Positions 12,731 to 62,033 of a stretch of 64,000 nucleotides of DNA are shown one piece after another. The notes beneath the pieces were generated by a model. The model did no database searches, was not told where the DNA came from, and was given only the letters and a program-made list of their open reading frames with translations. The DNA is from Hippasteria phrygiana (taxonomy: Eukaryota > Echinodermata > Asteroidea > Valvatida > Goniasteridae), in contig JAZGUH010000722.1 of assembly GCA_037893225.1 (NCBI GenBank), forward strand, positions 248,001 through 312,000. The letters run 5' to 3'. Position 1 is the first letter of the stretch. Each line of letters begins with the position of its first letter. A program made the position numbers and the translations under genes.

Positions 12731-12731
12731 T

Positions 12732-13694: not shown

Positions 13695-13860
13695 CTGCAT
13701 TGTAGAACAATTATTAAACCTTTTCTGCTTTGACTTTTAAATTTTCCAAACATAGAGTTCCTAGCACCAAGGAACATTTATTCCACTTAAATAGTTAATT
13801 TGAATAGCCGGGGCGTAGAAGAGAGTCGGGGATGTTTGTAATTTAGTTATGTTCTTAATT

Positions 13861-17422: not shown

Positions 17423-19656
17423 TCAGTCGGAAGGATTGGCCTCGGCGGGGACCCGTGTATGGAGGGCGTGCCGAAGATTGAGCCGTTGACGCGGCGGGAA
17501 AACGCCCGCGGGTTCTGCCCTGTGGAAGCCTGAAGCGGCCTGCTGGGGCCCGGGGGCTCGACTTGGCCTTAGGTTGAGGCTGTGCTGTCGACTTCTGGGC
17601 AGGCTTGCGAAGATTTATCTTATCGGTAGCCTCTATTCGCTTCGCTTCGGCCTCCATGGAGGCCTGGAACTGATTGGCGAATAAATCCGGGCCAAATAAT
17701 GGTAAAGCCTCTATCCGCTTCCTGGCCCCTTCCGAGGGGAGGTACAGGGAATCGAGGATATTGGCCCGACGGACGGATGTTGCCATCACCGAAATACAAG
17801 CAAACTGCTCCAAAGTCAGGCGGAGGGTTTCGTCAAGGCAGCGGAAGGCTGCGGAGAGCATGTCCGCAGGAACGGTAGCCCCGTCCACACAGCCTCTGAC
17901 CAGGTACTCCGACAGCAGTAGGAGGAACGAGGTCGAGCGCATGCCGAATCTGGAGGCCCAGTCTGTCTTCCTCAAAGTGTCCTCGATCTTATTTCTAGTA
18001 CGATCGGTAAATAGGGCACGTGTCGAACCCGACCCACTACCATCAGCGGCCAGCTTGTCTCTGGCAGAGTCAGGGACTGTTGGTACTGTAAAATAGTCGT
18101 CAAAGTCCTTCGATGGGAAACGGAAATAACCGTTGGTACGTTTGTCGAAGGACTGCCACGTTTTGCGATCCGCTACGGCCTGGATATGTTTAATGCAAAA
18201 CTGGTCCAGGGGTAGGGTCGTGAAGGGCGTCAAGCGTCCCGCAGGGATATCCTATGCGGTACGCTGTTTGAACGATTGCTGGGCCCGAGGGTTTTGGTTC
18301 CTCAGCGGAAGTGTCTGGAAGACCCAAAACCCGGATCATGTCGCGTTGAACCAGACGCAACTGTGTCTCGATGGGGGAGAGATGATGTGTGTCAAGCATG
18401 TCACCCTCTGCATCAGACAACCCCTGGTCCGAATCCGTGGCCTCCGTAGCTGGTGTCCGCTCACGATGGAGGGGCACCGCCGGCACTGAGTCCCCATCCG
18501 ACCCCGAGAAAACTGCTGAAGGGTGGATGGAAATGGCCGGAGGTGAGGCCGGGGCACGACCCAAAGCCTGGGGGAGATGTTGTTGGTCACGACGAACCCA
18601 ACCCTGGACGTCCCGAGTCGGCGGAGCGACAACGGGGGCGACACTGGGGGCGAGTTGACCGAAGTGCGGGGCCGGCTGACCCATCTGGGGGGAAAACAGG
18701 CCCGCGCTCGGGGCGAGTTGGCCCGCAATGGGGGCGAACCGTCCCGTGTCCGGGGCGAGTCGGCCAGCGTGTGGGGCGAGTTGGCCCACTGGCGCGAACC
18801 CCGCAGTTGACAAGGTCGACAGGGACGCTGTGAACGCCTGGAAAGCCTGTAAGAGATCCGCATTGAAAACGGACTCCGCATGTTTGCGGTGTTTCCGGGA
18901 GCGGTCCGAGGACGATGGTGTGTCCAAGGAACGGTGACGTTTCGTACGCGATTTCCCTTTCTTGACTGGGCGACCCCGCAAAACCTCAGTATCCGAGGGC
19001 TCGGTGGAGGGCGGGATCGCTGGAATTCCGGAGCATCGGAGTAAGTCCGAGGCAGAGGAAAAACTCGCAACGGGGACCCATGGGTCCCCCACCGAACGGC
19101 CAGGGGCTAACGGCCCGGGCGGATCGGTGATTGCGCTGCCCGCCAGGGTGGCACCGCTACCCTGGGTCCCGTGGTCATATGCCAGTGACCCATGGGTAGA
19201 GGCGGGCAGATTGGTCACGCTGAGCGTGGCCGTAGCCTTGGCCACACTGGCCGGGATCGGGGGGTGGCCATAGGCAAAGGAAGGCAACTCGGCGGGGAGG
19301 GTGTCCCGCTTGCCTTTGAAGCTTTGGACCGTGGTGCGCGATTTTTGGCTACTCTTACCGGTCAGCTTCTTAGTCGGCTGGTTTTCCCCGTTATCCGCGG
19401 CCGGGGGAACGGGCTGAATATAGCCCGATCCCCGGCCTATGGGGAGGCCACTGCCCGTTTCCGGGCAGCGGAGTGAAGTCTGTGTACGGGGGAGGGTGGC
19501 CCCAACAGATTCACGGTCGGAGGCAAGGCCATGGGAGGAGGGTGTCTCCCTGGGCTCGCCCCCCGGAGGTGCGGGCAGTCCCGTGGAACCCACGTCCACG
19601 GGTACCGCCCCGCACCGAGCCGACTTACGCTTCACATTTTTCTCCCGTGAAGCCAT
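17376..19656 (-). pseudogene. DIRS gag-like ORF with one frame change
   Basis: Begins MASREKNVKRKSARCG at 19656 and runs 488 codons through Pro/Ala/Gln-rich repeats (PxxGQLAPxAG units near 18.7 kb). The frame shifts once near 18190-18235, and the second part carries DRKTWQSFDKRTNGYF and RFGMRSTSFLLLLSEYLVRG, then an Arg/Pro-rich tail ending SAPRFSGG. The end overlaps the start of the RT frame. The shift may be mutational or programmed; one copy cannot tell. Confidence 0.7.
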
Positions 19657-20389
19657 GACTATCGAAATAACAAACTAAACACAAGAATACAAACTCTACA
19701 ATCTTTATTCAAGAATACTTAGCAAATGTACGGCAGACGTAGACGTAAACTGCGTGTATAACGCCACTGAACAAATTTCACGTCCTACGCTGATCAGCGC
19801 TAAGAGAAAAGAGGACGCTAACATGGCGGGTGTGCCGCGGGGCATGGTGGGAAGGCTATTGTGTGAAATCTTAGCGAGTGTATTGCGCCCTCTAGGGAAA
19901 TATGCATTGGTAGTGGCTCTACGGGTAAGATGAGCGCTGTAGACTTTGGTTATTCGTGGGGGCAGAAATACATGAAAAGCCTAGTGTAGGGACCAGTTGT
20001 TTCTGTCGTCTACTCCTCGCAGATAGTCGGCACAGTTCAACTTTGCCAGTCTTCTAGATTGGCTCCTGGTTCTTCAATTTACTTGAATATGGGGAGCGGT
20101 AGCGAGTAATTACTATCTGGAAGAATCTCTTTCCAGTGGATGTATGGTTATTAAATATTTTGATATTATATAGTGCATTGCCATTTTCCAATCCCTTCAC
20201 AAACTTCCCCCAAGTACGCGTGCTTTCAACCGATAATTCTCCGCGATTCAAACCCGTATGCGTACATATGGGGACAGGAACCTGCCCGACTCTCTTCATT
20301 CTTGCTGTATGCAATGACTGTGTACTTCGTCACGTGTGCGTGGACATATCTGAGGCACTTCGGTAGAAAGATATTGCAATAATTTTTAC

Positions 20390-20734
20390 CTGTCACAGAG
20401 ATTTCCGTCAGACAACTCCTTTGCCAGCCATTTGACCAAAAAACGTGACACCAGAGCCGCCGAGAATTACTTAAAGCGTCCGGCGAGTTGATAATAAGGG
20501 ATGCATCACTATTAATATTATAACCGGACTGAACTTGAAGAATAGTCGCATCAGAGAAACGAGCGATAATGATGTCTGTATATGTCGTGACACCCTCTCC
20601 CGTTGACCAATACACTACGGATATCTGTGGCTGCCGTAGCTCTGGAGCGCACTGACACGGGATAGTCCGTCTGCGTCCTCGCTGTAAAATAGCGGAAGCT
20701 GATCCGTCACTGGTGCTTGCCGGAAACTTGTCAT
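20390..20734 (-). CDS. Gene 1 Ig-type exon c (intact copy)
   Basis: 115-codon exon from acceptor AATTTGCAG to donor GACAG|GTAAAA, phase 1 on both sides. It has RTIPCQCAPE (first Cys pair), ISVVYWSTGEGVTTYTDIII, NINSDASLIINS and a last-strand RRLWCHVFWSNGWQRSC, ending EISVTG. It is the only undamaged member of the c type: the copies in genes 2 and 3 carry stops and other lesions. It would be the second domain from the N-terminus. Confidence 0.85.
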
Positions 20735-21021
20735 CTGCAAATTAAGGAGAGTTGCGGTGAAACAATTATACATTAGAGGGAGTTTGAGTCCCACATATAT
20801 AAATCCACTGAAAATGTTCGTGATGTTTGTTATTTTTATGTAAGACCCCCTAAAAATTACTTTTTTTGTGGAACAGTTACTTCAATGTTGGCCATTCCCC
20901 CCTAGTCGCCCCTCATTATCATTCCAAGGTAACCCACCCTGGTCAGACATGGTTGTTTATTGCCGAGTAAGGGAATTCGGGTAGGGCAGCCTCGTGTTTG
21001 AAGTGGTTGTGGTGATGTGGC
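20735..21021. other. Gene 1 intron; no feature
   Basis: No exon or repeat recognised. Confidence 0.3.
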
Positions 21022-21119
21022 ATTCCGTTTACTGCTAAGGTGTAGAACAGACCGTTCTCCAAGCTCCTTACGGGATCGCCACTTTTTACTATTTTTGCCC
21101 CACCACTCTCAACACAGGT
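21022..21119 (+). repeat. Direct repeat, copy A (98 bp)
   Basis: Starts ATTCCGTTTACTGCTAAGG and ends CTCAACACAG. It is about 98% identical to 22091-22188. Here the copy is followed by GTGAGT, a splice-donor-like sequence absent from copy B. Confidence 0.85.
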
Positions 21120-22090
21120 GAGTTTTCCTTTTATTCTTTCATCTATATGCAAGAATAGGATTACCTAAATTATAGTTATTAAGTTGTTAAACTGAAGAGG
21201 CATTATATTATGCAGGATAGTGTTCATTTCTTCTTATAAATTTGTCATGTTGTATAGAGCAATTGTATTGATCATTTTTTCCTTTCAACCGGCATGGTTG
21301 ATGATGAGCCGATGAGATATTTCTCACATTTAGTCGAGTATCAATTGGATTGATTCCAAACTTATTATGATTATGATTTCACGTCATAATATATTGCTCG
21401 GACATAATCTTGCACTCAACGACATTCATTAGATTGCTTGATATTTAATTTGTTTAGTTTAGCATTTTATTTATCTGTTATATTAATTGAATATCTGATG
21501 AGGTTTCGTGAACATTAATTTGCTAGTTATATTCAGGTCAAACTTATAGAGTTCTGTTTCAAATATATTCGTTTCATTTATAATCTTTAGAGTAGTTATG
21601 ATTCCTGTTCTAGACGACGAGCCATATTCGATTTCACCTTTAAGTCTATAACCAATCCATTCACATTATTTTCCGTGTGGCAACTTCAGCACTGCCCCTT
21701 TAACTTAGCTGTGACCACTTGTAAGAATGGCCTTGTAAGTTCAGTGGCAGCACTGACTGTGCGGTCATAAATCGGTCGTTCATTATGCACAAGGCATACG
21801 TGAGCCGGGATATACCCCAGGCCAGCTCTTTCTAGAAGTTATTTGACCTCCTATGAGCCAGCACTAATCGTTTCACCATTCACTTTGTTTTTTGTAAACA
21901 AGACTGCATTTTGGCTCATGTTAGGAAAGCGGGTTTAAAATTAATAATTATGTCATCTTGTTTTATTATTTAGTGAAGGATAATTTGAGTTGTTATTATT
22001 TAGGCTTGTGTTAATTTTTTGGTTACTGATTTTGTTATTTAGGATTATTTTATACTAGGATTTAATAATTAAATAATCCTAGTAGAAATA

Positions 22091-22188
22091 ATTCCGTTTA
22101 CTGCTAAGGTGTAGAACAGACCGTTCTCCAAGCTCCTTATGGGATCGCCACTTTTTACTGTTTTTGCCCCACCACTCTCAACACAGGT
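22091..22188 (+). repeat. Direct repeat, copy B (98 bp)
   Basis: Differs from copy A at about two positions and continues GTTGTTGTTCGAC instead of a donor. With copy A it brackets about 970 bp of AT-rich DNA without a recognisable ORF. These may be remnants of a terminal-repeat element. Confidence 0.85.
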
Positions 22189-22804
22189 TGTTGTTCGACT
22201 CTGTGTTAGCTGCCCATTGGAGTGTGTCTTCCTCGAGACGAGTCCAACCGCTAACCTGTGCCAGACGTGTTGCTGTGCTATTTTCGTTTTGCTGTGATGT
22301 GCTCTTCCCCAAGTTCTTCTAGTTCTTCTCGCCCCTACTGCTTCAAGTTCATCTAGTTTCTTCAATTCGTCATTCTTCTCCTTGGATCTACAGACTTCAT
22401 CTCCCTCTTCCTTGAACTATTCGCGTTCACCGATTGGACTGTGTACTCGTGTGTACTATATAGCTGTTCAGTTTTCCCGCGGATCGCGTTGGTTCGAATT
22501 ATTTTCCATTTGTTATGTTTGTATATTAATCAGTGTTATTGTTGATTTTGAAGTTCAATTGTTGTCCTTTGCACTTGAGGTTTCGAGGCATTAAATTGAA
22601 CTGACTGTATAATCGGCCTGAAATTCGTAATTCTATATTTTTCTTATTTTGTCGACAGTGAACCGGTATTTAATTATAACGGGGACCCAAAAGGGAAAAC
22701 CCGTGACATTTGCAATTACGACGAAGCCGATTTGAATTACAAAGATAATGCATCTATATGGGATATTGTGAACATTTGTTAAACATTTGGGAATGCAGGT
22801 GGAC
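22189..22804. other. Gene 1 intron; no gene recognised
   Basis: Open frames on either strand show no domain. The stretch may belong to the element that supplied the 98-bp direct repeats. Confidence 0.3.
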
Positions 22805-22824
22805 TTTGAAAGCTAGGATAATTT

Positions 22825-23760
22825 AATAATAATAATAATAATGAACATTTATAAGGCGCCGGTATCCGCCAAGCAAGACGCTCATGGCGCACAATACAAT
22901 GAAATTTAAATAAAATTTAAATTTAAATTAAATTAAATTTGATTAACAGAAATCAGTAACAGAAATAATGAATACCAACTCATTAAACACAAAATCGTGA
23001 GGTAAACATGTGGATTTTAAGAGAAGATTTAAATACAGACAATGATGATGACTGACGAATTTCAAGGGGTAGATTGTTCCAGGGTCTCCCCAAGAGTGCT
23101 TGGTACGGGGAACAGAAAGCTGTAGTGCTCTGGCCGAACGAAGACTACGTGGCGGTTGATATTGCGTGATAATGTCCGTTATGTAGTCCGGTGAAGTTCC
23201 TTGTAGCGACTTGAAAGCGAGAAGGAGGATCTTGAAGGCAATGCGATCAATGATGGGGAGCCAGTGGAGAGACTTTAAGACGGGGGTGATGTGAGTGGTG
23301 CGTCTGGATAAGGTGATCAGGCGAGCAGTGGCATTTTGAAGGCGTTGAAGTTTGTTGATTTGTTGTTGTGGCAGGTTATACATGAGGGAGTTACAAACAT
23401 CTAAGCGTGAATTAAGTTATAAATGCATGGAAGAGTTGCTCAGTGGCCATACGATTGAGATATTTCCGAATAAAGCCAAGATTACGGAGATGAAATCTGA
23501 CTGATTTTGACACTGCTGATATATGGTCAACGTGGGACATGTGGGGGTCGAAGGTGACACCTAGGTTGCGTCACTTGTTGGAAGGATAGATGAGGCAATC
23601 TCCAATCCTAACGCTGGGGATATGGCAAGTTGTTGTTTTGAGCCACACATGATAAATTCAGATTTGTTGTTATTCAATTTGAGACTGTTTGTCATCATCC
23701 ATGTCTTGATCTCATCAATGCAAGCCTCAAGATTCTCTAGGGCAGACACAGCATTAGGTT
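22825..23760 (-). mobile_element. CR1/L2-like LINE, 3' fragment
   Basis: The minus strand encodes the end of a reverse transcriptase and its C-terminal tail: EIKTWMMTNSLKLNNNKSEF, then KLQRLQNATARLITLSRR, HITPVLKSLHWLPIIDRIAF and SLQGTSPDYITDII. The 3' end is an (ATT)n run at 22825-22842, as in CR1/L2-clade elements. 5'-truncated and frame-broken, it is a dead insertion in a gene 1 intron in the host sense. Confidence 0.85.
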
Positions 23761-23809
23761 GAGATGGATTGAAGGATTGATACAGTTGTATGTCACCCGC
23801 ATTTGGTTG

Positions 23810-24020
23810 TATTTATTGAAATTCTTTCTGGTAACGCAAGCAACGATTCCCCTGAATTGCACATCGCGAGGAAAACCTCTGAATGATATTCTGGGGAAAA
23901 CCGACGGAATCAGACAGGGACTGAAAACCCAATCCACATGTCAGCCCAGGGTGGGATTCGAACCCGGGTCACAGAGATGGAAGGAGGGGAAAGTACTGCT
24001 ATTAAGCCAACCGGACCTTT
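23810..24020 (-). repeat. Second tRNA-derived SINE family
   Basis: The minus strand has a B-box-like GGGTTCGAATCCCACCCTGG near 23950 and a following body with GGGTTTTCAGTCCCTG and GGTTTTCCCC, the kind of core found in widespread invertebrate SINEs. It differs from the other SINE family in this window. Confidence 0.6.
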
Positions 24021-24417
24021 GTTCTGACCACCTCAATTACAAAGTGTGTGACCCACTGTTGGTGGAACGTCGTTTTTGTTCGACTAGGCTTAGGTAGTAA
24101 ACTGTTATGTCGTAAAAAAGTTTTGGAAAAAGGGACACATTGCAAGAAACATTGTTTAAAATAATATGACAAATAGACCACTCATGATCATTACATAAGA
24201 CCACAACGTCCCGTCAGTCCATCCTGCTAATTACTACTGAGGGAAGACAAATTAGGAGATTGTTGATAGACTACCTGTGCATATTTAATTTGGTATGGTA
24301 TCATAGTGTTGAATTCGCGTTCATATGGTATTAATATGGTAATTATATTTATATATTCATATTTCACAGAGTCAACCGAAATGTTGCTTCCACTGTTTCT
24401 ACAAAAAAGAATATTAC

Positions 24418-24729
24418 CAATAACGTTGATATCGATCCATCTATCTCGGAAGAGTGTGATGAATCTGCAGAGGTAAGACCCTTCATCCTCCTCCTTGACA
24501 CCTTTAATGACGAGGCTAGAATCAGACGAGAATGTGTATCTCTCTTTGTCAGGGAATTCTTCTTCGGCGTCGCGGCTGATCAAAGTAGTAGACGTGTCAT
24601 CTTTGTACCAAATCACATTATCTTGTATCTCGCCGGCACGGAATGCTAAGCAGGGAATTCGGTGCCACATCCCTTCTTGAATAGTTGCATACGTGTTGTT
24701 GCGGCCAAATGCATCTTGAACAAGTTCCC
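24418..24729 (-). CDS. Gene 1 Ig-type exon d
   Basis: 104-codon exon from acceptor GTGACATAG to donor TATTG|GTAATA, phase 1 at both ends. It reads GELVQDAFGRNNTYATIQEG, then WHRIPCLAFRAG, NVIWYKDD, SLVIKGVKEEDEGSYLCRF and INVIG. The V-like hallmarks (Cys, Trp, D-E-G-x-Y-x-C) are complete. Paralogues are at 38.5-38.8 and 61.7-62.0 kb. As first exon after the signal peptide it is the membrane-distal domain. Confidence 0.88.
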
Positions 24730-25624
24730 CTATGTCACAAACAAAAATATTTTGTTTGTATTTACTTGTCGAAATTTAGCAAACCTGTATCCTTGGATCC
24801 CAATTGGCCCCTCCCATAACAGCAGTTAGATATTGACTCCAAACGAGAGCACTATGCGACCGTGACAAAAGAGGACCAATTTTCCGAGGCTTTTAATAAA
24901 ATACTTTTTAAGAATCTTAGGTGCGTGGGATATTGTTGTAAATGGACAATATTGGTAGCTCATGTTATTTTGGGGTATAGTTGATGAAAATGCAAGTTCT
25001 AGCTAAACCATTGGTTGTTCGTTACTCAGAATCATGGGCAGAGCAAGTCGCGTGAAATGTGATATTCAGTACATAATATAAAAAAACATGCGGAACCAAT
25101 GCAGGGTCTAAATGTTGCATATTATAAAACAGTAAATGTATATCTGGATGGTATAGATCATATGAATCACACATCAGGAGTAGACGTTTTCATGTCAAAA
25201 CACCACAACGGAACACGTCCAAGACGTAAAGTTATGCCGAAAATATAGAACAGTGTATACATTTTACGAAGCGTGAGTTATATTCTTATAAGATTATGTC
25301 ATATAAAAACATAACATGACATCACTTCGAAGAATAAGGTTTTACAGCGAAGAAGAAATAATTAATTTTCTTGCAATATGTCGGAGTATATTTACTACAA
25401 TTAATGTTAAAATGTGTAGTGACGTCATCTTACCATTCTCTGTGTGTCTTACATTCAATCAGAGGACTGCTCTGCACGTTGATTAGTGGTGAAATCGTGA
25501 ATATATGACTAGTCATCACTCATAAGATTCAGGTTCGAGGAAGAGCAAATACAACATTACATCGTGCTGGGCTATTCCTCAAACTTTGACTTCGGCTAAA
25601 TCTTCGGTTTCCCTTAGTTTTAGG
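24730..25624. other. Gene 1 first intron, 3' part; no feature
   Basis: AT-rich; no exon or repeat recognised. Confidence 0.3.
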
Positions 25625-25714
25625 TGGCCTAACGTTTCCAACTTAATCATGTTCTTTCTCAAAGAACGTTTGCCTTTGAGAAAGAAATTGTGTTAGATCG
25701 AAATGTTAGGCCAG
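25625..25714. repeat. Short inverted repeat
   Basis: GGCCTAACGTTTCC and its diverged complement near 25700 flank TCTTTCTCAAAG and its complement, giving a 90-bp imperfect hairpin in the first intron of gene 1. Confidence 0.7.
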
Positions 25715-25949
25715 CCTATTTGTTTTGATATGTATATTTCAGGTCAGTCCAGTCAGCATTTTGCAGTACTTTAATTCATTTCTAATTTTAGGTCCTCGGA
25801 TGTGGCTAGATCTGGGGCACTTTATTCTAAATGTACATCAAAGTCATTTCATATCCGTGCATGATGTTTTCCAGTTGGATTATCCCATATTCTCTGTGTA
25901 ATTTAAATAAGATACAGAAAATATATCTTTAAAAATATATGTTTCTCAC

Positions 25950-26046
25950 CGTGACTTCCGGGGCAAATGCTGTATTTAGATTCACTCAGTACTACTATCA
26001 GGAGAAGAAGCGCCAGGCACGTGTGGATTCGTATCCAAGACGCCAT
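25950..26046 (-). CDS. Gene 1 signal-peptide exon
   Basis: ATG at 26046 opens MASWIRIHTCLALLLLIVVL followed by SESKYSICPGSH and a donor CACG|GTGAGA, phase 1. A basic start, a hydrophobic core of about ten residues and a polar cleavage region make a standard signal peptide. The C-terminal ICPGSHG matches ICPHGHG in the gene 2 signal exon, which supports common origin. It splices to Ig-d about 1.2 kb downstream. No 5' UTR or promoter element could be assigned. Confidence 0.85.
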
Positions 26047-36849: not shown

Positions 36850-37130
36850 TCACTTCTACTTCTTTGTTGGAATCCGACGGGTCACCTCTTTTCGTACGAC
36901 TCATTTGCATTCTACAACAAGATTACCTTCAAGGTTTGGCATGACTTGTGGATCTGACAAGTTGTCTTCAAACTTATCCAACAAACTTAGGAGTACTTCG
37001 TCCTTTGCATCACGGCCTGAAATATGAAAGCTTTTGACACTGCTGAAGTGTTTTAAGCTGTCTGCAAGGAACCCAACAAATGCTGAAAATCTTTCCGAAG
37101 ATAGAAAGATGATGCAGAAGCCTTCAAAGC
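36850..37130 (-). pseudogene. Gene 2 NLR C-terminal remnant
   Basis: Minus-strand translation gives FVGFLADSLKHFSSVKSFHI, then SGRDAKDEVLLSLLDKFEDN and QVMPNLEG. This aligns with FVKFLADNIKCFNGVKYFHI and MPNIKELVIG near the end of the gene 3 NACHT-LRR protein. A further stretch at 36.85-36.91 kb resembles the polar C-terminal tail. The NACHT domain, most of the LRRs, the transmembrane exon and Ig b/a are gone. It sits only about 270 bp from the damaged Ig-c exon, so a large internal deletion is the simplest history. Confidence 0.8.
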
Positions 37131-37401
37131 AGTTTCACTAGAGGGGTTTGTATCTGCAACATTTAGAAACAATCCAGCACATCAAGATAGCTAAATTCAC
37201 ATTAAAACAAATAGCAAACATTATTAATTTTTTTGGAATTGAATAAAAATAATATGGACTCGTTTGTCCACTTTGCGTGGCGCTGAGCCGAATTCGTAAC
37301 TTTGGTAACTATAAGCAAATATACAGCCCGGCAGCCCGACAGACAGACAGACACATTAACACAAAAGCATAGCATACTGCAATGTACAGTCGTTTCATAA
37401 C

Positions 37402-38262
37402 CTTTTGATATCCGGATATCGGTGTAGCAATTGCTGAGTGTACCATCCTCGTAGAATACATGACACCAGAATCTCTGAGTATCTTGTACATCATTCAGGG
37501 AATTGAATGTATGTGAAGCGTCGCTACCAATGCTGTAATCAGCGCCATGTTGAATCTGCAGGACAGTACCATAAGAGAAACGCGCACCAATGAGCAAGTT
37601 CGGTTGGGCGACTGGAGTGACTAGACTTAACCATAGCCGATCTAGATGTCGCCCGAAAGCTGTGCGGTTTGACTAGCTAGTCCAACTGGATCAACCTAGC
37701 TCCGGACCATGGTTTCTCTAGTCACTCGCGAGTTACGTCACGGTTTCAAGATGGAGGATCGGTAAACTGGGCAAGTTTTGCAAACGTTTACGATAATTTG
37801 TTGGTTTTGTCCAATGATAATAACTCTTTGCAATTAGATAATGAATTATTTATTGCACCAAAGTTAAGTAGAGAAAATAATAGAAATAAATAATAGAAAA
37901 TAGAAATGACATCCAAACATTTGCTTCGTTAACAACTAGCAGACGACATTCTTTGCAGTTTGTTGTTGCTGCACACTAACTAGATTTGACGTAGTCGATC
38001 GACTAGATGCGTTCGAGTGAAGGACAGACCACGCATGCGTTTTTTAAATAGCAAATTGACAAAAAGGACTAGGTCAGCTGCACCCGAACTTGCCCAATGA
38101 TGTCTGTATCTGCAGTTACGCCCTCTCCCGTTGACCAATATACTACTGGAATTGGTGCGTCTGGTGTCTGTGGCGCGCACTGACACGGTAGCGTCTGTCT
38201 GATTCATCGTCTCCAAAAGGCAGTAGACGAAGTAACACTGCTGCTTGCTGGAAACGAAGTTC
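37402..38262 (-). pseudogene. Gene 2 Ig-type exon c, split by a transposon
   Basis: The N-terminal half (38262-38094) has the c-type features LPCQC and VVYWSTGEGV; the C-terminal half (37593-37402) has GARFSYGTVLQIQHGADYSI and RFWCHVFYEDGT. A 500-bp element (37594-38093) separates them. Independently, a TGA lies upstream of LPCQC where the other copies have an amino-acid codon, and the expected donor reads AAAG|GTTATG, a weak match. The exon is triply damaged. Confidence 0.88.
37594..38093. mobile_element. 500-bp non-autonomous DNA transposon in the Ig-c exon
   Basis: Ends are inverted copies of GCAAGTTCGG. The element is flanked by direct CCAATGA (37587-37593 and 38094-38100), which in the undamaged gene 3 paralogue occurs once at the same place, so it is a 7-bp (possibly 8-bp) target duplication. 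No transposase frame. The superfamily is uncertain; the duplication length would suit hAT or P-type elements. Confidence 0.88.
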
Positions 38263-38496
38263 CTGTAGTAATTAATAAGACGCTTATCTGTATTAAGGTC
38301 CCGGATAGGTTGCTCCAACGATATTGCATGTCCTCAAAGCTCAGAGAATATTTGCCTTCTCTCCCAAGTCACTTACTTTTCTTTTTGGAACTCATTTACA
38401 AAATTTAGAACATTTGAAGATTCATTGTTTCGAAATTAACATATGAATACTGTGAAACGTTTTCAACCAATCAGAGATACATTGCCAAGGCCTTAC

Positions 38497-38829
38497 CTAT
38501 AACTTGAATATCAACTGCTTCAACTCGTATCGTCGAGGTTAGACTCGGTACAACTCTGCACAAATACCTCCCTTCATCAGTTTCCTCGACACCCTTAATG
38601 ACGATGCTGAAATCTGACGAAAACGAATATCTATCGCTGGATGGATTATCTCCATTGTCTCCAACACGGCTTATTAGCTGTACTGTTAAAGGGTCGTCTA
38701 TGTTGGACCCTTTGTACCAGTACACACCGTCAATTGTCTCTTCTGGCCTGAATGCTGGGCAGGGAAGTCTGTGCCAGAGTCTCTCCTGAACGGTACTGGG
38801 CAGGCCAAAGACATCCCTAATAGTTATTG
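38497..38829 (-). CDS. Gene 2 Ig-type exon d
   Basis: 111-codon exon from acceptor TTCTTCCAG to donor TATAG|GTAAGG, phase 1 at both ends. Reads AITIRDVFGLPSTVQERLWH, RLPCPAFRPEE, GVYWYKGSNIDDP, SIVIKGVEETDEGRYLCRVV and VDIQVIG. No lesion, and close to gene 3 exon d in the GSNI.DP segment. With the signal exon upstream it could still be translated as a secreted Ig fragment. Confidence 0.85.
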
Positions 38830-39039
38830 CTGGAAGAAAAAAGTAAAAACTCACAAAAGGGGAGGTACATTGGGGTTACAGTGCTGCCCCTTTGAATAAT
38901 ATTTAATGAAACTTTATGATGAAATGGTGAAATTAGTTTAGTTATTTTGAGCTTGGAAAGTACAATAATGTGGTCCAGTGAAGAAGACAGCATTTCGATG
39001 CAAAACGTTTTAAAAATATTGTAAATTGATGAGAAAACA

Positions 39040-39235
39040 ATCAGCAGCGTATCCAGGGGGCGATGGGGCGCACGACCCCATAAGATATCATTTGTCCCCC
39101 CCCCCCCCATTGTAAATTTCGCAAACGGAGAAATTAGTATTAGGCCCTATTAAGACAAATACTGTGAGCACCCCCCCCCCCCCCCCCCCCCTCCAACTCG
39201 CCCCCACTGGAGACAGCCCTGGCTACACCACCGCA
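39040..39235. repeat. Dispersed repeat with C tracts, copy 1
   Basis: Contains GCGTATCCAGGG at one side, CCCCACTGGAGACAGCCCTG with GGCTACACC at the other, and two poly(C) tracts (39096-39108 and 39170-39191). The outer words are inverted relative to each other. A related unit lies at 52.96-53.07 kb. Confidence 0.6.
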
Positions 39236-39410
39236 AACAATAATTACCAAATTTACCTCAACTTCTGATCGATATTATCATTTACGACTAAAGGGTCAGT
39301 CACTAGACTAGTCAGTGATTAGTACCAAGATGTTCACATAAAAAGGGATGCAACGTGATCGTAAAGTTCCTGGGCTTGCACGCTGTATTCAGAATTAGCA
39401 AATCTCTTAC

Positions 39411-39492
39411 CATGGCCGTGTGGGCAGATATTTAGGTCAGCAACACAAAGTCCCATTGCAATAAATAGAATCACTGCACACCTCAAACCCAT
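39411..39492 (-). CDS. Gene 2 signal-peptide exon
   Basis: ATG at 39492 opens MGLRCAVILFIAMGLCVADL followed by NICPHGH and the donor CATG|GTAAGA, phase 1. A one-Arg start and a hydrophobic core form a signal peptide, and the tail matches ICPGSHG of gene 1. About 580 bp separate it from Ig-d. It marks the 5' end of gene 2. Confidence 0.85.
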
Positions 39493-43075: not shown

Positions 43076-44558
43076 TACTCAGGTGCCAGCACCTTGGGGA
43101 CAAGAGGATATTTTTTTGCGGCAGACATGATTAATTATGATTCATTGTTCATTATGATAATATTTTCAGTTATTTGTAGAAGCGCAAAACTGAAACTATT
43201 ACGTTTTTAATCTCTGTGTTTTTCTTCAGGAAGTAAGTCCATTTCATTTTCAGCTGGCAAGGCGCATAGCTACAGCTGTACGGGGAATATGAATTAAATT
43301 GATTTTTTGCCGGAAGCATGGAGGGTCTGTTCATTTTTATATGAACAGCTCTTAGTTTTCAAGCTTCCCAAGGTAAGCTTACTCTGTTTCAAGGCACTGA
43401 CGATCATTAAACGTTACTAATAGAGTTGAAAGCTTGTGATGTAGCTAATTAGGTCGAACTAAACTAAATCTAATTGAACTAAACATGGTGGCTTCATTAT
43501 CATATATGTACATTGGTTGGTTCATTACTATTCAACATTCACGTTATTTAACCCGTTATTTAATGAGCAGGATTTTTTTCTGATGGGGCCCTCATTCGGG
43601 CAGTGGGAGGGTACGCTCTCCCTCAGATCTAGGCCGAGCAAAAACAAACCTTTAAAAATTAAATTTGTAAATGAGGATACTTATGAGAACTATTTGAAAT
43701 TGCCACAAAATTGTGGTTATGGTTCATGTTACACGGTACTGCTACTGCACGGACGCACGGTTTCTATTATGTGTGAGGTCATTAAGCAATCACTGCAGTT
43801 TTCACCCCGCGTCGGAAAACCCAAGAACGGCACGCTCATTTAAAAACAAAACATTTAATGTCAATTTGTTCCTAAGACATTTAGGCCTATAGCCCAAAAA
43901 GATTCCGGTAGGCATCAAAAAAATGCAAGGCTTTTGAGGTTTATGTATTAGTCCAAAGAGACCATACATACAAATTTTTTTTTTCTGAAAACTATGTCCG
44001 ATGTCACATGAATATCCGGCTCCCATCAGACTGTTTAACCATGGTGCATTGCACACAATTGTGTTTTTATAATGAACACAATACTTTTTGGCAATGACAT
44101 AACCTCTAACTACCTCCCAACACTAACTCTAACACCATATTAAACCCTTACCCCATTCCTAACCCGATTTCTCATCCCAATCCTCACCCCCATCTCTGCC
44201 CTTTGTTTCGTATTGTTTTGGTAGGGGTCTACTGATCATGCGCAGCATATCCAACAAGTTAGATTTACAGGGGAGTCTATATTCATGCAACACCGGCCCT
44301 TAGGCAAAAGCGTTATGTCGTTTGGCTGGCGAACCTTCTTTATACTTGTATTTTAAATTATGCCCGGAAATCGGTCGGTCAATCAATAAATCAATCCATA
44401 CTTACATAAATACATGAATAAATAAAAGAAAAAGGCACGCTGCCGTTAAAAGGTAGCGGACGGGACGCTAAACAAGTTTTTGCATTTTCCCTTCCAGTAT
44501 TACTTTGTTTATTTCTTTCTTGTTACTATTTGTTACTATTGTATTTTGTTTTACTCAG
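43076..44558. other. Upstream region of the plus-strand Ig receptor; signal exon not identified
   Basis: A signal-peptide exon for the following gene should lie here or further upstream, but none is convincing. The frame at 43517-43843 has no recognised domain. A degenerate CTAACCC-type stretch is at 44100-44200. Confidence 0.35.
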
Positions 44559-44852
44559 TTGAAACGAATGATTCTTCAGATCAAATCTGGATTCTCCCGG
44601 GACCAACTTGGTCGGCAGCTCTCGGTACAAACGTCACTTTCTCTTGCGGAATGCACTCCAGCGACATCAAGACCATAAAATGGTTTCTCGGGAAAGAGAT
44701 ACAAACCATTTGTAATTCATCCAGCATCCAGCACAATCTAACTGAATGCAGTCTGAGGATCAACCCTGTTGAAGTGTCGTCAGAAGGCTGTTATACTTGC
44801 CGAATTAAGGGAGGTAGCATTGGAAAGCGCACTTTGACATTTAGTGTAACAG
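44559..44852 (+). CDS. Plus-strand receptor, Ig exon 1
   Basis: 98-codon exon after a long pyrimidine tract ending TTTTACTCAG, with donor AACAG|GTAGGT, phase 1 at both ends. It reads IWILPGPTWSAALGTNVTFS, then CGMHSSD, IKWFLGKE, LRINPVEVSSEGCYTCRIKG and LTFSVTG. Cys, Trp and x-G-x-Y-x-C positions define a V/I-like Ig domain. It has two N-glycosylation-type sites (NVT, NLT). The open frame extends upstream with hydrophobic residues, but that part is the translated pyrimidine tract. It faces the minus-strand receptor array. Confidence 0.82.
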
Positions 44853-45949
44853 GTAGGTTTGTATGTTTAATACGTGTAATAAATTCCATTCATTAAAACA
44901 AGATCCCTCCGAACCGAACTGGATAGGACAGAATAATGCTCGTTCGAGTTCCCCCCCCCCCCCCCCCGCCCCCCTCAGACCTCGTCTTGAACGGTTTAGC
45001 TATAGGCCCCGTGCAATCCTGTTACTGCGTTATTTCGTTTACCGTTCTTTGCTTTTTATTCTAAAACTAAAACGCTGAACAAACTTGAGACCGTGTATTC
45101 GTTTCACATTTTTGTAAAACAGTAAACATGGTGCGAACAATTTTATTACTAGGAATTGAGCTGATTTTGCGCTGTGAAATGGTAACAAAAAGTGCCACAA
45201 GATGCTAGAAATATACTCATATCATTTTGGATTCTCTTTGTCGTTGTAATGTTTCAATGTAGCCTGCGGACACTTCATCTGCACAAGGAGAAGCTTCAGG
45301 TGCACTATTTGGAAAAACAACCTGAAGTTTGACATAATTACGTCAGCAAGTGAACGAGTTAATATTAAGCTCTTCCATTTCACGTTTGCCCTCCCCTAAT
45401 GTTGGAACTGCATATTTCAAGCCCGCCTGCGACTCTGGTAACCCTTTTGCTGAACCCACACACCATAATAATTGTAGAGTGAAAGGACTTTGTACTAGTA
45501 AACTGGAGGTCGTGGGATCAAGTCCAGCCCGAGTAAGCCTATGATTTTTTTTTCACAGGCTCTCGGAACAGTGCTTAGTCTGGAAAGGGCAAAAATCTCT
45601 TCTAAATTTACAGCACCCCCGACGCCATTCCGTCTTCTCACTAATTACGCGGTATACCCGCTGCTACATTGGATTACCCGATTTCAATCAAATTAGATGT
45701 GAAACAGTGACGTATCAAAAATGTGGGAAGGCAACAACTTGACACTCCCCCACCCCGTCACAATTTTAAATATTTTAAGGCTTCATTAAAACGCAACTAC
45801 GTAACATCCAGTATTACCCCTCCCCGCTTCTCCCTTAATAACGTTTTCGAGAGAAAAAACAAAGGGATCACCGTGTCACAAACCTAAACCATTTAAATCC
45901 TTCTACTGAACCCACAGAACAAATGTAGGCCTACATTCTAAAAACTGTG

Positions 45950-54913: not shown

Positions 54914-57900
54914 CTACAGCGATATCCCCCCTGTCATCTGGGTAACTGATGAGTGCAATACATCAGTGGCCAATTCCAGGTCCGTTGGTTGTTGATGTTG
55001 TTTCTCGTCAGTGTTACGTTGGATTTGGGAGGATGTGGTCTTGTTATCCACCTGTTGGGTTGCCGTGTGTATTTCCGCCGTGGTTGGCTCTGCTCTGTCT
55101 GTCAGATTTTTAGCTTCCTTTTCTTTACCTCGACTAATGCCACGTTTCTTCTGGGGCTTTTTTGAGGGAAATCTAGTCCTTAATGATTCCATGTTGCCAA
55201 TAACAAGCTCCTTTATGTTTGGCATGATCATTGGATTGCACATTTTGCTGTGGAACTGATCCACCAAAGTTTCCGACAATTTTTCACTTTCAAAAATGCC
55301 TGAAATGTGGAAATATTTCACGCCATTAAAGCACTTTATGTTATCAGCAAGGAACTTGACAAACGTTTCCACTGGAGAACCGTGAAGGAGATAGAGCGTC
55401 GTCAACCTTCCCCATGACTTTCCATCATCCTTATTCATTTCCCTTTTCACGTGATCAAACCCAGCAATAGTTACTCTGTACAGAGACAACCTGAGATCTA
55501 TCAGGTTTTTGCAAGCCCAAAGTGAGTTCGTTATGGCCACAAAAGCCCTGTCATCGAAATGCTTATTCAGACGAAGATCAATCTTTTTCAAGTGTTTAAG
55601 TTCGTTCAGGTGTGTGGCAAAGTTGCAAATATCATCTGAACGTAGAATCGTGCCTACTAGAATGAGAATTTCAAGATTCACTAGACCAGGCAAACAGCGA
55701 GCCAACTCTCGTGCTGCACTCGATGAGTGACATTCGCCGGATTCTGACTCAATGACCTCCTGTAAACCCAAAGACTGCACAGTATGGATGACACTCATGT
55801 CAGACTGGTTAGGTGGAAATTTAGGCACAGCGTTATCGCTCGATTTAAGTCTCTCACGCAATTGTATCAACGTCGTTGTTTCCCAGTCACTGCCAATTAC
55901 ATCAAATGATTTAATTTCATTACTACCCTCGGAATCTGATTCTTTAACCATCGATGACGAGGAAGTTGACTGTTTGTCTTCGCTTTTGACAGGTTTCCCC
56001 TCACTGGCTGATCTTGACCCCAGTAGATCTGGAGACTGCAAAGCACTTACGATTGCAATGCCTGCCTGTTGTCTTTGATTTGTTTGCTGTTCGGTGTTAG
56101 TTTGCTCAGAGCTCTCATTCAACTGTTTCGACGAATGGTTGCACCGATTCTTTTGATTTTCCTCCACGGACGTATGAACCTCTGAAGGTGAGTCTGTTGA
56201 TTGCAGATTGACTTTGTCAGCTTGCCTGGACTCACTTGGAGATTGTGTTTTAGCCAAAGCTTGGGCTGGTCGATCCATGCCAGTTGAAGGCGCTGTTACG
56301 TCCAGTTGCAGAACAGGACGAAAATACTCAAGGTATTCTTGGAGTTCACTCCAATCGCATTGTCTCATTCGCAACAATTCGACTGACTTCACATTCAGAC
56401 TGTCGTCTACTTTCCGGTATGCATATTTAAGCAGATACGACAGAAGACGAACCCTGTGCCTGGAAAGTCCAATTGACTGGATATTCCCTCCGTCAAAGAG
56501 CGAACTAAGCTGAGTGTTCTTTGAAACCTCGAATCTTCCTTCGAAATTGAGCAGCAGAACTCGCTCGACCAATGTTTGTAATTGCAAGATGTCTTTCAGG
56601 TTCTTCGTTTGGTGACGTGCTCTGGCCCTGATAACGGCGCTCACCAAATGACCAATAACCATCGAGTAGGCGACATACCCATATCTGCAGGCGATTGCAA
56701 AAACGAAGACATTGCAGATCTTGTCAACGTTCGATTCTATGTTGCCGAAGTGAATTGTAGTTATCCAATTTGAAGTGTTTTCTGTACAACAAGCCATGTA
56801 GACACCAGCACAATACTCTTGAAGTATCTCAAGGGTGAAGCAAACCTTGTAATCGTCAGATGAAGAACGAATTATCTCTGAATCATTCCTTGCTTCGTTT
56901 TGTTCTCTCTTGGTATCTTTGCAAAAGTAGAGAATCCCAATTTCAACACCTCTTTCGAGGACTGTGTGCTTTTCCTTACAGTCTGCTTTAGAAAGGGTCA
57001 TTCGACTCCCATAACATTCATCAATCTTAGGTAGGGCAACCCTTCCCAGATCAACTAATACGTCTAGTTGTGGTTTTGGTAGGAGGCCTGCGAGCCTAGG
57101 TAATTCACCTGAGTAAGTTGCCTGATCAGCTACACCGCCCTCATGCCTGTTCAATATCGGTAGGCATTTAACCAGCTGTGAGACCAACTCATACATGGTA
57201 GGACTGGACTTTTCAAAAACCTCTCCATTGGTCCAAATGGCTAACTGACAGAAAGCAGCAAGGTTCACAGGTAGGCAAGCAATGTATGGCTGTAAAATAT
57301 CTTCATCCAAATACTCGCAAAGGTTAGAGATTACTTTCTTTTGTTTAGCTGTCAACTCGTGTGCATCTTCACATCTTTCAGCGTCCTTGCTAGTTGGTGT
57401 GTCATTTGTACTAGTAACCTTTGACCCACCAGTGGTCTTCGGTGATTGGTTAATATGATCACGATCAAAAGAAACGCTCAGTACCTTTTTGACGTACCTT
57501 TTGGCATTGTCTCGCTTAAAGCCAGTGATTGTTATATGACGCAGGGAGGTATCGTGCGTCACCTGCGCATGTCCGGTGGTCATGTTTATGATTATTTGAC
57601 AGTCACGAAGACCTTGGCCTTTCATTATTTTCAACACGCGCTCTATGTCATGTACATGTATGTTATCACATCCATCGATAAGTATGGTCACTTGGCTTGG
57701 GTTGCGCGAGCAATAGTCATTAATGTCATTCGCCAGTATGTCTGTATTTTTGGGTAGCATGTGCTGGACGACTGCTTCACCCAAATTCTCTGTTTTAAAA
57801 AGGCCACCTACCGGTAAAACAAAGACTAACGTTTGCCCTTCAAACAGTGCACCGGTTACCCCATTGGACCAGTCATTTACCAGCTTGTGTAGGAAAGTAG

Positions 57901-58185
57901 TCTTACCACTGCCTGTTCTACCTTGGATGAGAACATGTTTACTCGATAACTCTGAAATGCCATCGTCAAAGATATCAGTTTCTGATTTCAGCCTATACCT
58001 CACAGTACCATCTTCGATGCGTACATTGGTGAACAACTCTGGTTGTGTATACACGTCGTTTATCGGCGCATACCATGCCTCCTCATCTGTGATCCACGGT
58101 GTTATGGGAACTCGGTCAGTAGTCTGCCTCACAAACGTTTTGAGTTGTTTAACAAACGCTGCCAAGTCGAATCCTCTGACAGGCT
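54914..58185 (-). CDS. Gene 3 NACHT-LRR exon (cytoplasmic part of the receptor)
   Basis: One exon of about 1,089 codons after acceptor AATTAACAG, beginning with two bases of a split codon. No ATG lies near the start, so it is a downstream exon. Counting from the Leu codon at 58165: P-loop GRTGSGKTT at 82-90, Walker B ILIDGCDN at about 161-168, winged-helix-like region to about 600, a Ser/Thr/Gln-rich linker at about 640-780, and leucine-rich repeats at about 828-990 (LVNLEILILVG, LKHLKKIDLRLN, CKNLIDLRLS, FVKFLADN). A basic/polar tail ends MTGGISL. NACHT NTPases oligomerise to start immune signalling. An alternative in-phase acceptor (TTGGCAG) is 25 bp further in. Confidence 0.92.
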
Positions 58186-58915
58186 CTGTTAATTAATTAA
58201 CACAAATTTAAGTCTGATAAAAAAATCTGGTGGGTAAGGTATGAGACATTGCTGACAAGCAACGATTGAACATATAATGAAATTATAGATCACCATTATT
58301 TTGTAATTTATTTCTATAATTTTTGCTTGTTACATTTTCTTAACCTATGTTTAGTTTGTCCCCAAAAAGCCAAGAAAAACCTGCAAAAAATTAATAATAA
58401 ATGATGGTGTTATCCCATTCAGTGACGCTCCGAATCCGTTGACTTCAAACTATGTAGGCCTATTGATAACAATACATTTTTGTTGGATGTGCCCGTTTCC
58501 GATTATATTTTCACCGGGATGTCTTTATTGTGAATAAAACTGACCAAAAGACCAATATGATCATTAAATCGCAAAATTTAGCAGGTGTGATACTGAGGAT
58601 ATTTTGCAGATTCCTCTTCAAACATACCTATAACTATACCTTAAAATAACCCTATATAAATATGTAAATCCGAGGGCTCAGGCTACAGTTAGATACAGGG
58701 TTGGGGCTATATTCAGTGGTCGGGGGCTACATGAAGTCGGGCGTAAGGGATCGGCGTAGCATAAATAGGTCTTAAAGGAGTGAGTCTTTAAAAATGTATA
58801 GCACCAGAGTTGTTCAAAAGCATCATGAGTAGAAGACTAGCTTCGCAAACATTTACATATATACAATGCATAATCAAAAAATATATGACCAGTTGGAGTT
58901 TTCAAGATATTTGTT
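58186..58915. other. Gene 3 intron between NACHT and TM exons; no exon seen
   Basis: No coding segment recognised. The remainder of this intron is a foldback element. Confidence 0.4.
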
Positions 58916-59440
58916 AGTCTAGGTTCCAAGACGTTCTTAGCGGTGCGACGTATAGCGCGCACGGCCGGCCGACAGCGCCCTCTCGCTACACACACACACG
59001 CCAAGGCCAAATCGCTAAGAACGTCTAGGGAATTTCGCAAGTTTTGCTCGCGAAATCGCGAGCAGAACTGTGTGGCATTTGCATGCGCGTGTGACGTAGC
59101 TGCATTATCGCATGTAAATAGCCAACACTCACTAGTCTAGTTTCTGTACTCACGTCGAAGATTTCTCAATCATGTTTGCCAGTCCAGAATCACTCTGCTC
59201 AGAACGTTAACTGACTAGTAAGTTATTACTTAAACATGAGTTTCCTCCAGTGCGCAAGCGCGATTATTCGTTTGACCCGCCTGTTAAATTATGCATAAGC
59301 AGGTCGCGCGCGCTCCCTTGCGAAATTCCCAAGACGTTCTTAGCGATTTGGCCTTGGCGTGTGTTTGTGTGTAGCTAGAGGGCGCTGCCGTGCGCGCTGC
59401 ACGTCGCACCGCGCTAAGGACGTCTTGGAACCAAGACTAG
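58916..59440. mobile_element. Foldback MITE with arms of about 120 bp
   Basis: Left arm 58916-59040 (CTAGGTTCCAAGACGTTCTT, GCGCCCTCTCGC, CTAAGAACGTC) is repeated as its complement at 59318-59440. The centre is about 280 bp. The short open frames inside are translations of the arms. It lies in the intron joining the transmembrane and NACHT exons. Confidence 0.88.
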
Positions 59441-59606
59441 ATATTTGTACGATCTTTAGAAACTTCCGAGACAGCGTCATTATAAAACATCTGGATCATT
59501 CAGACCTTTCTGGCCTTGACAACCAACATACACAATTTAGTGATGCTCTTGATCGATACTATTTCTCTTTGTACAGGGTTTCCTTTTGAAATGTCCGAAT
59601 GCTTAC

Positions 59607-59780
59607 CTCGAGGCACCATTTCGTATTGGCCTCGTTCAGGATCACTCTTCGGGTCTGGTGCTCGTCTCCAACGCCTCCATATTATGATGAAAGCCGTAAT
59701 CATAAGTAGCACAGCGAGAACAAAGACAATAGGGACCAAGATGACTGCGATATCCACAGGCTGTACATCTGCAGGGCCTG
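59607..59780 (-). CDS. Gene 3 transmembrane exon
   Basis: 58-codon exon from acceptor TGATTTCAG to donor CGAG|GTAAGC, phase 1 at both ends. It encodes GPADVQPVDIAVILVPIVFV, LAVLLMITAFIIIW, a basic stop-transfer RRWRRAP and a short juxtamembrane piece ending QYEMVPR. The last G plus AG of the NACHT exon makes a Glu codon, continuing PVRGFDL in frame. It is the hinge that makes the Ig-NACHT fusion a type I membrane protein. Confidence 0.88.
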
Positions 59781-60017
59781 CTGAAATCAGAGAAACGTGG
59801 AGTTTCAAAAGAACAGCACAAATTCTGAAATGTTCCAAAATTGTAATCCTTTTTTTAAATGTTTCCCTATTAAAGGGCAGCAAAGTTTTGTCTACTCTCT
59901 TCTCTCTTAATAGATGTCTTTGGCTATCACTTCAGAATCTATAAACCAACACTTCAGATTTAATTGTGTTTTGTCACAGGTTGCTTTCTGCACGAATTCA
60001 GATATATGGTAACTTAC

Positions 60018-60383
60018 TTTCTATAACTAAGATCTCGACATAAGATCTGATTAAGTCATCGCCGTCTGGGAAGACATGACACCAGTATCTGACGTCACCA
60101 TCGTGGGAGCAATTGTTCATGCTTAGGGACCCTTCTGGGGATATATCGAAGCAGCCGCTGTTATCTCTGAGAGCAAGGGTTTTGGAACCATCTGGTAAAT
60201 TCAGCATGCCAATGACATTTGTCGCCTCTGCATCGGGCTCACCAAACGACCAAATCACAGTTGCAGTGGCCGTAGTGGCATTGCCTAATAAGACCGGGCA
60301 AGTGAGTGTAATTTTGCTATCTGACTCAGAAATCCTGGAGCGACGGGCAGTAGCAGTACCGCCATCGAGCGGAAATGTACCAC
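60018..60383 (-). CDS. Gene 3 Ig-type exon a
   Basis: 122-codon exon from acceptor AAATACAG to donor GAAA|GTAAGT, phase 1 at both ends. It has SKITLTCPVLLGNATTATAT, VIWSFGEPDAE, GCFDISPEGSLSMNNC and GDVRYWCHVFPDGDDLIRSY, ending EILVIE. Besides the canonical pair it keeps the extra cysteines seen in gene 1. Undamaged. It is the membrane-proximal domain, about 240 bp of intron from the transmembrane exon. Confidence 0.88.
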
Positions 60384-60672
60384 CTGTATTTATAAAACGA
60401 GAAAATGAGAACAGGTGTTGAAAGAGTGCATAGACTGAGATTGCATATGTCTTTTTTAAAGGATCAGGCATTGCTTCATTAATCCAGGCTTCTTCCAGGC
60501 ATTTTAAAACATGAAGTCGATCGCAGCAACATCATCAATCGAAGCCCTGATCAATTGTGTCAGCAGGATTGCCCATCGATTAGATATTGACTGTTGTTTA
60601 GTAATTGCTTATCACCTGGAGAAAACGTCATGCCATGTATTGAAATATACCAAAAAAGGTAAAGCCACCTAC

Positions 60673-60993
60673 CTATCACTCGAACTGTGATAGCAATGGG
60701 TGTGGTCTCGGGACCAAGATCACAGCTGTATTCCCCTGCGTGATCTGTACCAACTTGTTCAATAAGAAGACCAAAGTTACTCGCAAGACCGTACGTGGTG
60801 GCAGCATCAATGACACCAGTCGATAAGTTATAATCGAGGATCTTGTGTTCACTGTCAGTGGTTCCCTTGTACCACTGTATCTCACACGATGCATAACTAG
60901 ATGTCCAGGTACTACATGGGAGTGTTTGCTGCGTTTGCTTTTTCAGGTAAAATGATGTGTCTGAAGCCTTCAAAGTACGAGGTGGTTGCTCAG
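60673..60993 (-). CDS. Gene 3 Ig-type exon b
   Basis: 107-codon exon from acceptor GTGTTGTAG to donor GATAG|GTAGGT, phase 1 at both ends. It reads EQPPRTLKASDTSFYLKKQT, LPCSTWTSSYASCEIQWYKG, FGLLIEQVGTDHAGEYSCDL and ITVRVIG. V-like hallmarks are complete and there is no lesion. Paired with gene 1 exon b. Confidence 0.88.
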
Positions 60994-61195
60994 CTACAAC
61001 ACAAAAGAAAAAAATATAAGATCAATAGTTGGCTTTTATCGTGCTATGCTGTTTAGTCAAGTGGTTTACTTTTGCTTGATACTTGTTCTCGAAATGAGCA
61101 GCTTCTATTCAACACATCACCCACAAAAATCAGACACAATCCTTTACTTTTGATGTTTTTTTTTTATCTAAAACAAACACATTCAACTACCTGAT

Positions 61196-61537
61196 ATCTG
61201 GACATTCGTGAAGCAATTACATCTGCATTCCATCTGGTAGGTATACATGACACCATAATCTCTGGGTATCCTGTACATCGTTCAGGGAGTTGACTGTAAG
61301 TGCAGCGTCGCTACCAATGCTGTAATCAGCGCCATGTTGGATCTGCAGGACAGTACCATTAGAGAAACGCGCACCAATGATGTCTGTATCTGCAGTGACG
61401 CCCTCTCCCGTTGACCAATACACTACGGATAATACTGCGTCTGGTGTCTGTGGATCGCACTAACACGGTAGCGTCTGTCTCCGTCCTCGCTGGAAAATGG
61501 CAGAAGACGATGCGTCACTAGTGGTAGCTGGAAACGA
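61196..61537 (-). pseudogene. Gene 3 Ig-type exon c, stop and frameshift
   Basis: Splice sites look intact (acceptor ATATGCAG, donor ATCAG|GTAGTT). The c-type sequence QRGRRQTLPC is followed by TAG where the intact gene 1 copy has CAG. After VVYWSTGEGVTADTDIIGAR and RLWCHVYLPDGMQ a one-base frameshift precedes CFTNVQIS. Because the neighbouring exons are all phase 1, skipping this exon leaves gene 3 in frame. Confidence 0.85.
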
Positions 61538-61694
61538 GTCAACTGCATATCAAAACAATCAGAAATATAAGAACTATCACTGCGTTATTCTAGAACGTAA
61601 TTCGAAAAGCGTTGATTCGTACATGATTTATTTTTCTAGCAAAAGTACAACAAAAATTACACCCCTACAAAATCCTGGATTCGCCCCTACTTAC

Positions 61695-62033
61695 CGATAA
61701 CTCTGACGTTGATTTCACCGACTCTGTAAGATGTATCTCGTGGTACGACTTGGCACAAGTATCTCCCTTCATCACTCTCCTCAACCCCTTTGATAACGAG
61801 GCTGAAACCAGACGACAGCGCGTACCTGTCGCTGTCCGGAAGGTCTTTGTTTTCAGTGTGACTTATCAGACGCTCCCTGTCAGGGTCATTAATGTTTGAT
61901 CCTTTGTACCAAATTACTCCTATAAGGACCTCGTCACTCCGGCGATAAGACAGACAGGGCAGTCGGTGCCAAACCCCCCGCTGTACGGTGGCATGTGTGT
62001 TAGACAAACTGACGGGGTCCCTGATGAACTTGG
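61695..62033 (-). CDS. Gene 3 Ig-type exon d
   Basis: 113-codon exon from acceptor TTATTAG to donor TATCG|GTAAGT, phase 1 at both ends. It reads KFIRDPVSLSNTHATVQRGV, WHRLPCLSYRRSDEV, GVIWYKGSNINDPD, SLVIKGVEESDEGRYLCQVV and INVRVIG. It is the most upstream exon of gene 3 in the window. The signal exon would be further right but was not found. Confidence 0.88.

Follow-up and report, generated by a model that had tools for sequence, protein, structure and literature searches.

A sea-star locus with the exon order of a single-chain membrane receptor joining immunoglobulin domains to a NACHT-LRR part

Introduction

Can the core of a NOD-like receptor (NLR) be carried across the membrane by an immunoglobulin (Ig) receptor, as one protein made from one gene? 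The question is raised by a locus on the minus strand of contig JAZGUH010000722.1 of the sea star Hippasteria phrygiana (assembly GCA_037893225.1), which occupies positions 54914-62033 of a 64,000-nucleotide stretch (contig positions 248,001 to 312,000) that was analysed as a whole and is called the window here. At this locus, Ig exons, a transmembrane (TM) exon and a long exon with a NACHT domain and, in a predicted structure, leucine-rich repeats (LRRs) follow one another, and the original prediction, made from the sequence alone, took them for a single gene with an undescribed receptor architecture. The locus is read here, with a probability of about 0.75, as a member of an echinoderm (sea-star-type) receptor family, duplicated in tandem, whose proteins cross the membrane once in the order Ig-TM-NACHT-LRR; the receptor would couple to uptake and in this copy skip one damaged Ig exon, V2. 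Exon order, frame, membrane span, NACHT domain and homologs are taken from sequence, the LRR from a predicted structure.

Results

Gene structure of the locus

With V2 left out, the exons V1, V3, V4, TM and NACHT (Table 1) join into a single open frame of 1,489 amino acids closed by its own stop, while the remaining two frames of the five joined exons hold 83 and 127 stops. Canonical ag/gt borders and phase-1 joins were checked across all five exons, and the predicted succession of Ig exons, a TM exon with a basic stop-transfer and a NACHT exon is borne out by this open joined frame, with the splice positions given for the TM-NACHT join, 59607 and 58185, exact to the base. The earlier list of Ig exons was right for the three intact ones, but a fourth, the broken V2 between V1 and V3, had not been listed. 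The TM span reaches a Kyte-Doolittle hydropathy of 3.17 over 19 residues, and the NACHT exon is open across 1,089 codons; since its first methionine (residue 142) comes after its Walker A motif (residue 88), this exon must be spliced to an upstream exon. The open frame, together with sea-star protein predictions that cross the TM-NACHT join (see below), supports the single gene originally proposed, and as judged from the sequence one gene very probably encodes the Ig ectodomain, one TM span and the NACHT-LRR part in a single protein. An inverted-repeat element, with arms 90-96% complementary, lies inside the TM-NACHT intron at about 58915-59439.

Table 1. Exons of the main locus and further copies of the family in the window
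Feature	Position	Strand	Basis and remarks
V1, V-set Ig exon, phase 1-1	61695-62033	minus	Pfam V-set 43.9 bits, above cut-off; splice borders ttattag / gtaagt
V2, damaged Ig exon	61191-61542	minus	in-frame TAG at 61462-61460 and frameshift (352 bases)
V3, V-set Ig exon, phase 1-1	60673-60993	minus	Pfam V-set 31.7 bits, above cut-off; splice borders
V4, V-like Ig exon, phase 1-1, membrane-proximal	60018-60383	minus	Pfam V-set 17.2 bits, below cut-off 26; splice borders
TM exon	59607-59780	minus	one hydrophobic span, then WRRWRR stop-transfer and YEMV (YxxPhi-like); splice borders
TM-NACHT intron	58186-59606	minus	gtaag / acag borders
Last coding exon: NACHT, helical part, low-confidence insert, LRR of ribonuclease-inhibitor type, stop	54914-58185	minus	Pfam, predicted model and fold search
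Second copy	36859-39492	minus	likely signal exon, V1, broken V2, V3 start fused by deletion to LRR end of NACHT exon
Third copy	8936-26046	minus	likely signal exon, V1, V2, V3, V4

Homologs in other sea stars

A protein search with the joined query listed 17 matches. Of these, 15 (P0001-P0015) are Ig-containing proteins of Patiria, Acanthaster or Asterias, 1,437-2,038 amino acids long, two of them marked partial, with alignments that cover 44-98% of the query. All sea-star homologs are database predictions and bear no more specific name than uncharacterized or Ig-like domain-containing protein. NACHT (PF05729) is annotated in 14 of the 15, the exception being P0003, and Ig domains, one strong TM and then a P-loop follow one another in every one of them (15/15); a hydrophobic stretch is also seen at the N-terminus of P0002 and P0008 and, more weakly, at 1021-1039 of P0004. 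When P0018, P0020, P0021 and P0022 are added, a strong TM follows the Ig part in 19/19 and a P-loop is present in 18/19, so that P0001-P0015, P0018, P0020 and P0022 share the order of the window gene. Set aside before counting were P0016, a Patiria NACHT protein with PF00531, which we take to be a Death domain, as well as P0017 and P0019 (both of source ena and without a protein name), the latter with one Ig ahead of NACHT and LRR. The search in relatives by which the original prediction was to be checked has thus yielded at least 15 sea-star predictions of Ig-TM-NACHT order from three genera, and 15 aligned homolog rows continue from the TM into the NACHT part with short gaps. Two further protein searches, aimed at sea-cucumber members, listed 21 matches, 20 of them named sea-star proteins and the remaining one P0019.

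The window protein is 34-41% identical to its sea-star relatives in the intracellular part and 36-50% in the ectodomain, with V4 reaching 51% identity to Acanthaster P0011. Distances of the ectodomain and of the intracellular part correlate over 19 sequences (18 from sea stars and the window; P0021 was left out, as it is without a P-loop) with r=0.92 and p=0.0001, where species structure inflates r; among 10 Patiria paralogs, r is 0.82 and p=0.016.

Two homologs depart from the common layout. P0021 (Patiria LOC119725511) has Ig domains and a TM but no P-loop, and its tail, by reading, resembles the last part of the NACHT exon; provided that it is predicted correctly, this protein would represent a natural loss of the NACHT core. 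In P0022 (Acanthaster LOC110987702) V1 is absent by reading, and TM and P-loop are kept, so that the number of Ig domains varies in the family.

The intracellular half

Pfam recognises NACHT in the last exon with 54.8 bits against a cut-off of 26.7 (expectation value, E, 1.3e-14), its Walker A reading GRTGSGKT, and finds no LRR in the exons of the main locus. Although Pfam is silent on it, the LRR originally placed after the NACHT domain reappears in the predicted structure, where five strand-helix repeats at about residues 839-996 (block mean predicted local distance difference test, pLDDT, 64-91) match ribonuclease-inhibitor and NLR LRRs in a fold search; a low-confidence insert takes up about residues 618-816. 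These model-based results support the view of the last exon as an NLR core with a C-terminal LRR of ribonuclease-inhibitor type. The nearest solved sequences are NAIP and NLRC4 (E 0.004-0.02).

The predicted NACHT-LRR fold is shared with the vertebrate proteins NOD2, NLRC4 and NLRP3, which are cytosolic and carry a CARD, PYD or BIR domain in front, whereas the window protein has its Ig-TM part there. It thus shows two features of an NLR, the NACHT domain with Walker A and the predicted C-terminal LRR. An N-terminal effector domain, of the Death fold or of another cytosolic type, was not detected: Pfam scans of the TM and NACHT exons, read up to E 1, give no match to Death, CARD or TIR, and the same scans of four family members (P0001, P0013, P0021 and P0022) are likewise free of these domains.

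The damaged V2 exon and the signal exon

Unlike that of the other Ig exons, the length of V2 is not a multiple of three. At the same time, no other exon of the locus reaches so high a best-match identity to a sea-star protein (75% over 103 columns, Acanthaster P0012), and an equivalent of V2 is present, by reading, in the five sea-star proteins read, although predicted proteins cannot show a stop. Because the exons are of phase 1, skipping of V2 preserves the frame.

Of a type I Ig superfamily layout, the main-locus copy shows the Ig and TM features, and its signal exon was not recognised within the window, where 1,967 bases lie between V1 and the window end. A strict signal-peptide motif scan of the whole minus strand gave zero matches anywhere, and tblastn with five signal peptides produced chance-level matches only. 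A scan for hydrophobic starts proposed three candidates upstream of V1 (63212, 63203 and 62659), which were rejected, as none resembles the signal exons of the family. Signal-like N-termini are seen, by reading, in five sea-star proteins. By its sequence, the main-locus copy either skips V2 and has its first exon outside the window, or is decaying.

Other copies and elements in the window

The second copy, whose V2 is split and stop-containing, has its likely signal exon starting at 39492, and that of the third copy starts at 26046; both read like the N-termini of the sea-star homologs. As an internal deletion within a gene of the same Ig-to-NACHT order, the second copy supports the linkage of the two halves independently of gene prediction, though not their splicing. 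Below the third copy, no TM or NACHT exon was found in the window with ten sea-star queries.

A retroelement lies between V2 and V3 of the third copy (14382-17422, minus; reverse transcriptase 63.8 bits), with RNase H-like and tyrosine-recombinase-like open reading frames, both below their own cut-offs; it is presumably DIRS-like. On the opposite strand, an Ig domain exon at 44450-44893 (plus; Ig_3 35.0 bits) probably belongs to a separate gene.

Discussion

The order of domains found here has a published counterpart in a sea cucumber. AjNLRC4 of Apostichopus japonicus is described as a receptor of the membrane that has Ig domains outside (31-132 and 251-353), a TM (483-503) and an intracellular NACHT (600-757), whose ectodomain binds bacteria and sugars and dimerises, with internalisation following dimerisation and the NACHT part acting through actin in phagocytosis (PMC8699970). 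Ig domains, TM and intracellular NACHT stand in the same order in the window gene, whose single chain is deduced from the DNA, and the layouts of AjNLRC4 and the sea-star proteins agree, since 13/19 sea-star proteins have their TM within 485-530 and their P-loop within 597-647; the Pfam NACHT of Asterias P0013 spans 608-751. The gap between the two SMART Ig hits of AjNLRC4 would, by analogy, fit an undetected V2, the domain that is broken in the window copy.

From the same species AjNLR-new (PIK48001.1), a membrane protein of 1,197 amino acids linked to phagocytosis, likewise holds Ig, TM and NACHT in one protein, but is reported with two TMs, the NACHT outside and the Ig inside (PMC13133943). 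NLRs containing a V-set domain are described for Chiridota heheva (PMC8913654), comparable to the window protein in their V-set content, a comparison that does not extend to TM or domain order, and putative membrane-bound NLRs are mentioned for sponges (PMC12909245). The receptor kind is therefore already known, and the claim that the architecture is undescribed was given up once AjNLRC4, published as a membrane Ig-TM-NACHT receptor (PMC8699970), had been found in the literature. No sea-star report of this layout was found in the open-licence literature, as judged by title and the start of the abstract. To this known kind the present locus and its homologs add an LRR (by prediction), a TM that is single, an arrangement in tandem copies and an occurrence in three genera of sea stars.

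According to the reading preferred here, members of the family would consist of a signal peptide, four Ig domains (three usable in the main-locus copy), one membrane span and a NACHT-LRR part inside the cell, the main-locus copy being made with V2 skipped. By analogy with AjNLRC4, the Ig domains outside may bind microbes or their sugars, upon which bound receptors would cluster and the NACHT-LRR part might couple the cluster to actin-driven phagocytosis and not to a caspase inflammasome. The phagocytic part of this scheme, as it draws on analogy, has somewhat less than an even chance of being right.

Several observations weigh against this overall reading. AjNLRC4 is reported without an LRR and with a second TM at 776-795, whereas in the window protein an LRR is predicted and a single strong TM is present; the absence of the LRR is not certain, because SMART was used there and Pfam also misses the LRR in the window. 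No named sea-cucumber protein is among the matches listed in the protein searches with family queries, so that the kinship to AjNLRC4 rests on layout. The TM exon is weakly conserved, with a tblastn match from 1/10 sea-star queries (E 0.002), and P0006 and P0009 are without most of its tail. The structure model has a mean pLDDT of 52.6 and is weak in the NACHT half, and Foldseek superposes it poorly over its whole length (NOD2: E 2.7e-11, TM-score 0.30). In the main-locus copy the sequence DGCDN stands at Walker B, and glycine (TTG) replaces an arginine that 13/15 homologs share (TTR/ATR); both deviate from what we take to be the NLR consensus, which makes nucleotide switching of this copy uncertain. 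Finally, with its V2 damaged and no signal-peptide exon recognised ahead of V1, the main-locus copy may not make a surface protein.

This last point leads to the rival that survives best, namely that the family does have this architecture, but that its main-locus copy is a decaying paralog without a functional receptor, dying like the clearly broken copy at 36859-39492. The TAG and the frameshift in V2 would fit such a fate, as would the lack of a recognised signal exon upstream when two other copies in the window have likely ones. On the other hand, the NACHT exon is open over its full 1,089 codons, V1, V3, V4 and the TM exon are undamaged, splicing past V2 would keep the frame, a signal exon could be located past the edge of the window, and P0022, by reading without V1, nevertheless has TM and P-loop and so illustrates that Ig number varies. 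Decay is accordingly a serious possibility, at odds of roughly one in three.

Somewhat less probable, and on balance unlikely, is that the NACHT-LRR part acts as a membrane-tethered, inflammasome-like wheel switched on by an outside ligand rather than as part of a phagocytic receptor. The NLR fold with LRR and the intact P-loop would suit such a wheel, but the Pfam scans of the TM and NACHT exons and of four family members show no Death, CARD or TIR domain, the motifs of the main-locus copy deviate as described above, and AjNLRC4 is reported as a dimer (PMC8699970).

It is highly improbable that two genes adjoin here, with the TM intron containing both the end of an Ig-TM receptor and the 5' exon of an independent NLR. 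Read-through of the TM-exon donor gives 35 further open codons before a stop (59500-59606, minus), so that intron retention could give a short-tailed receptor isoform without NACHT, yet the first methionine of the NACHT exon lies behind Walker A, the sea-star predictions cross the TM-NACHT join, and the distances of the ectodomain and intracellular halves are congruent. A reverse topology with the NACHT outside, as reported for the two-TM protein AjNLR-new of A. japonicus (PMC13133943), has next to no likelihood here, given one strong TM followed by WRRWRR, likely signal-peptide exons in two other copies of the window and signal-like N-termini in five sea-star proteins.

For the biology of sea stars, a tentative and rather unlikely extension would be that they possess a tandemly expanding family of surface NLRs made as one chain, with the NACHT-LRR part gated directly across one membrane span by a variable Ig ectodomain and with adaptor-free assembly triggered by a ligand outside. 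If true, recognition would be diversified as phase-1 Ig exons are lost, broken or skipped, and the signalling half would stay untouched. The membrane NLR of the sea cucumber is apparently no oddity, its layout being common to three sea-star genera, with the LRR kept and tandem copies in the window, and the fusion of Ig and NLR would date back at least to the common ancestor of these sea stars, perhaps to that of sea stars and sea cucumbers. The family thus offers a direct way to test whether an extracellular signal can activate an NLR.

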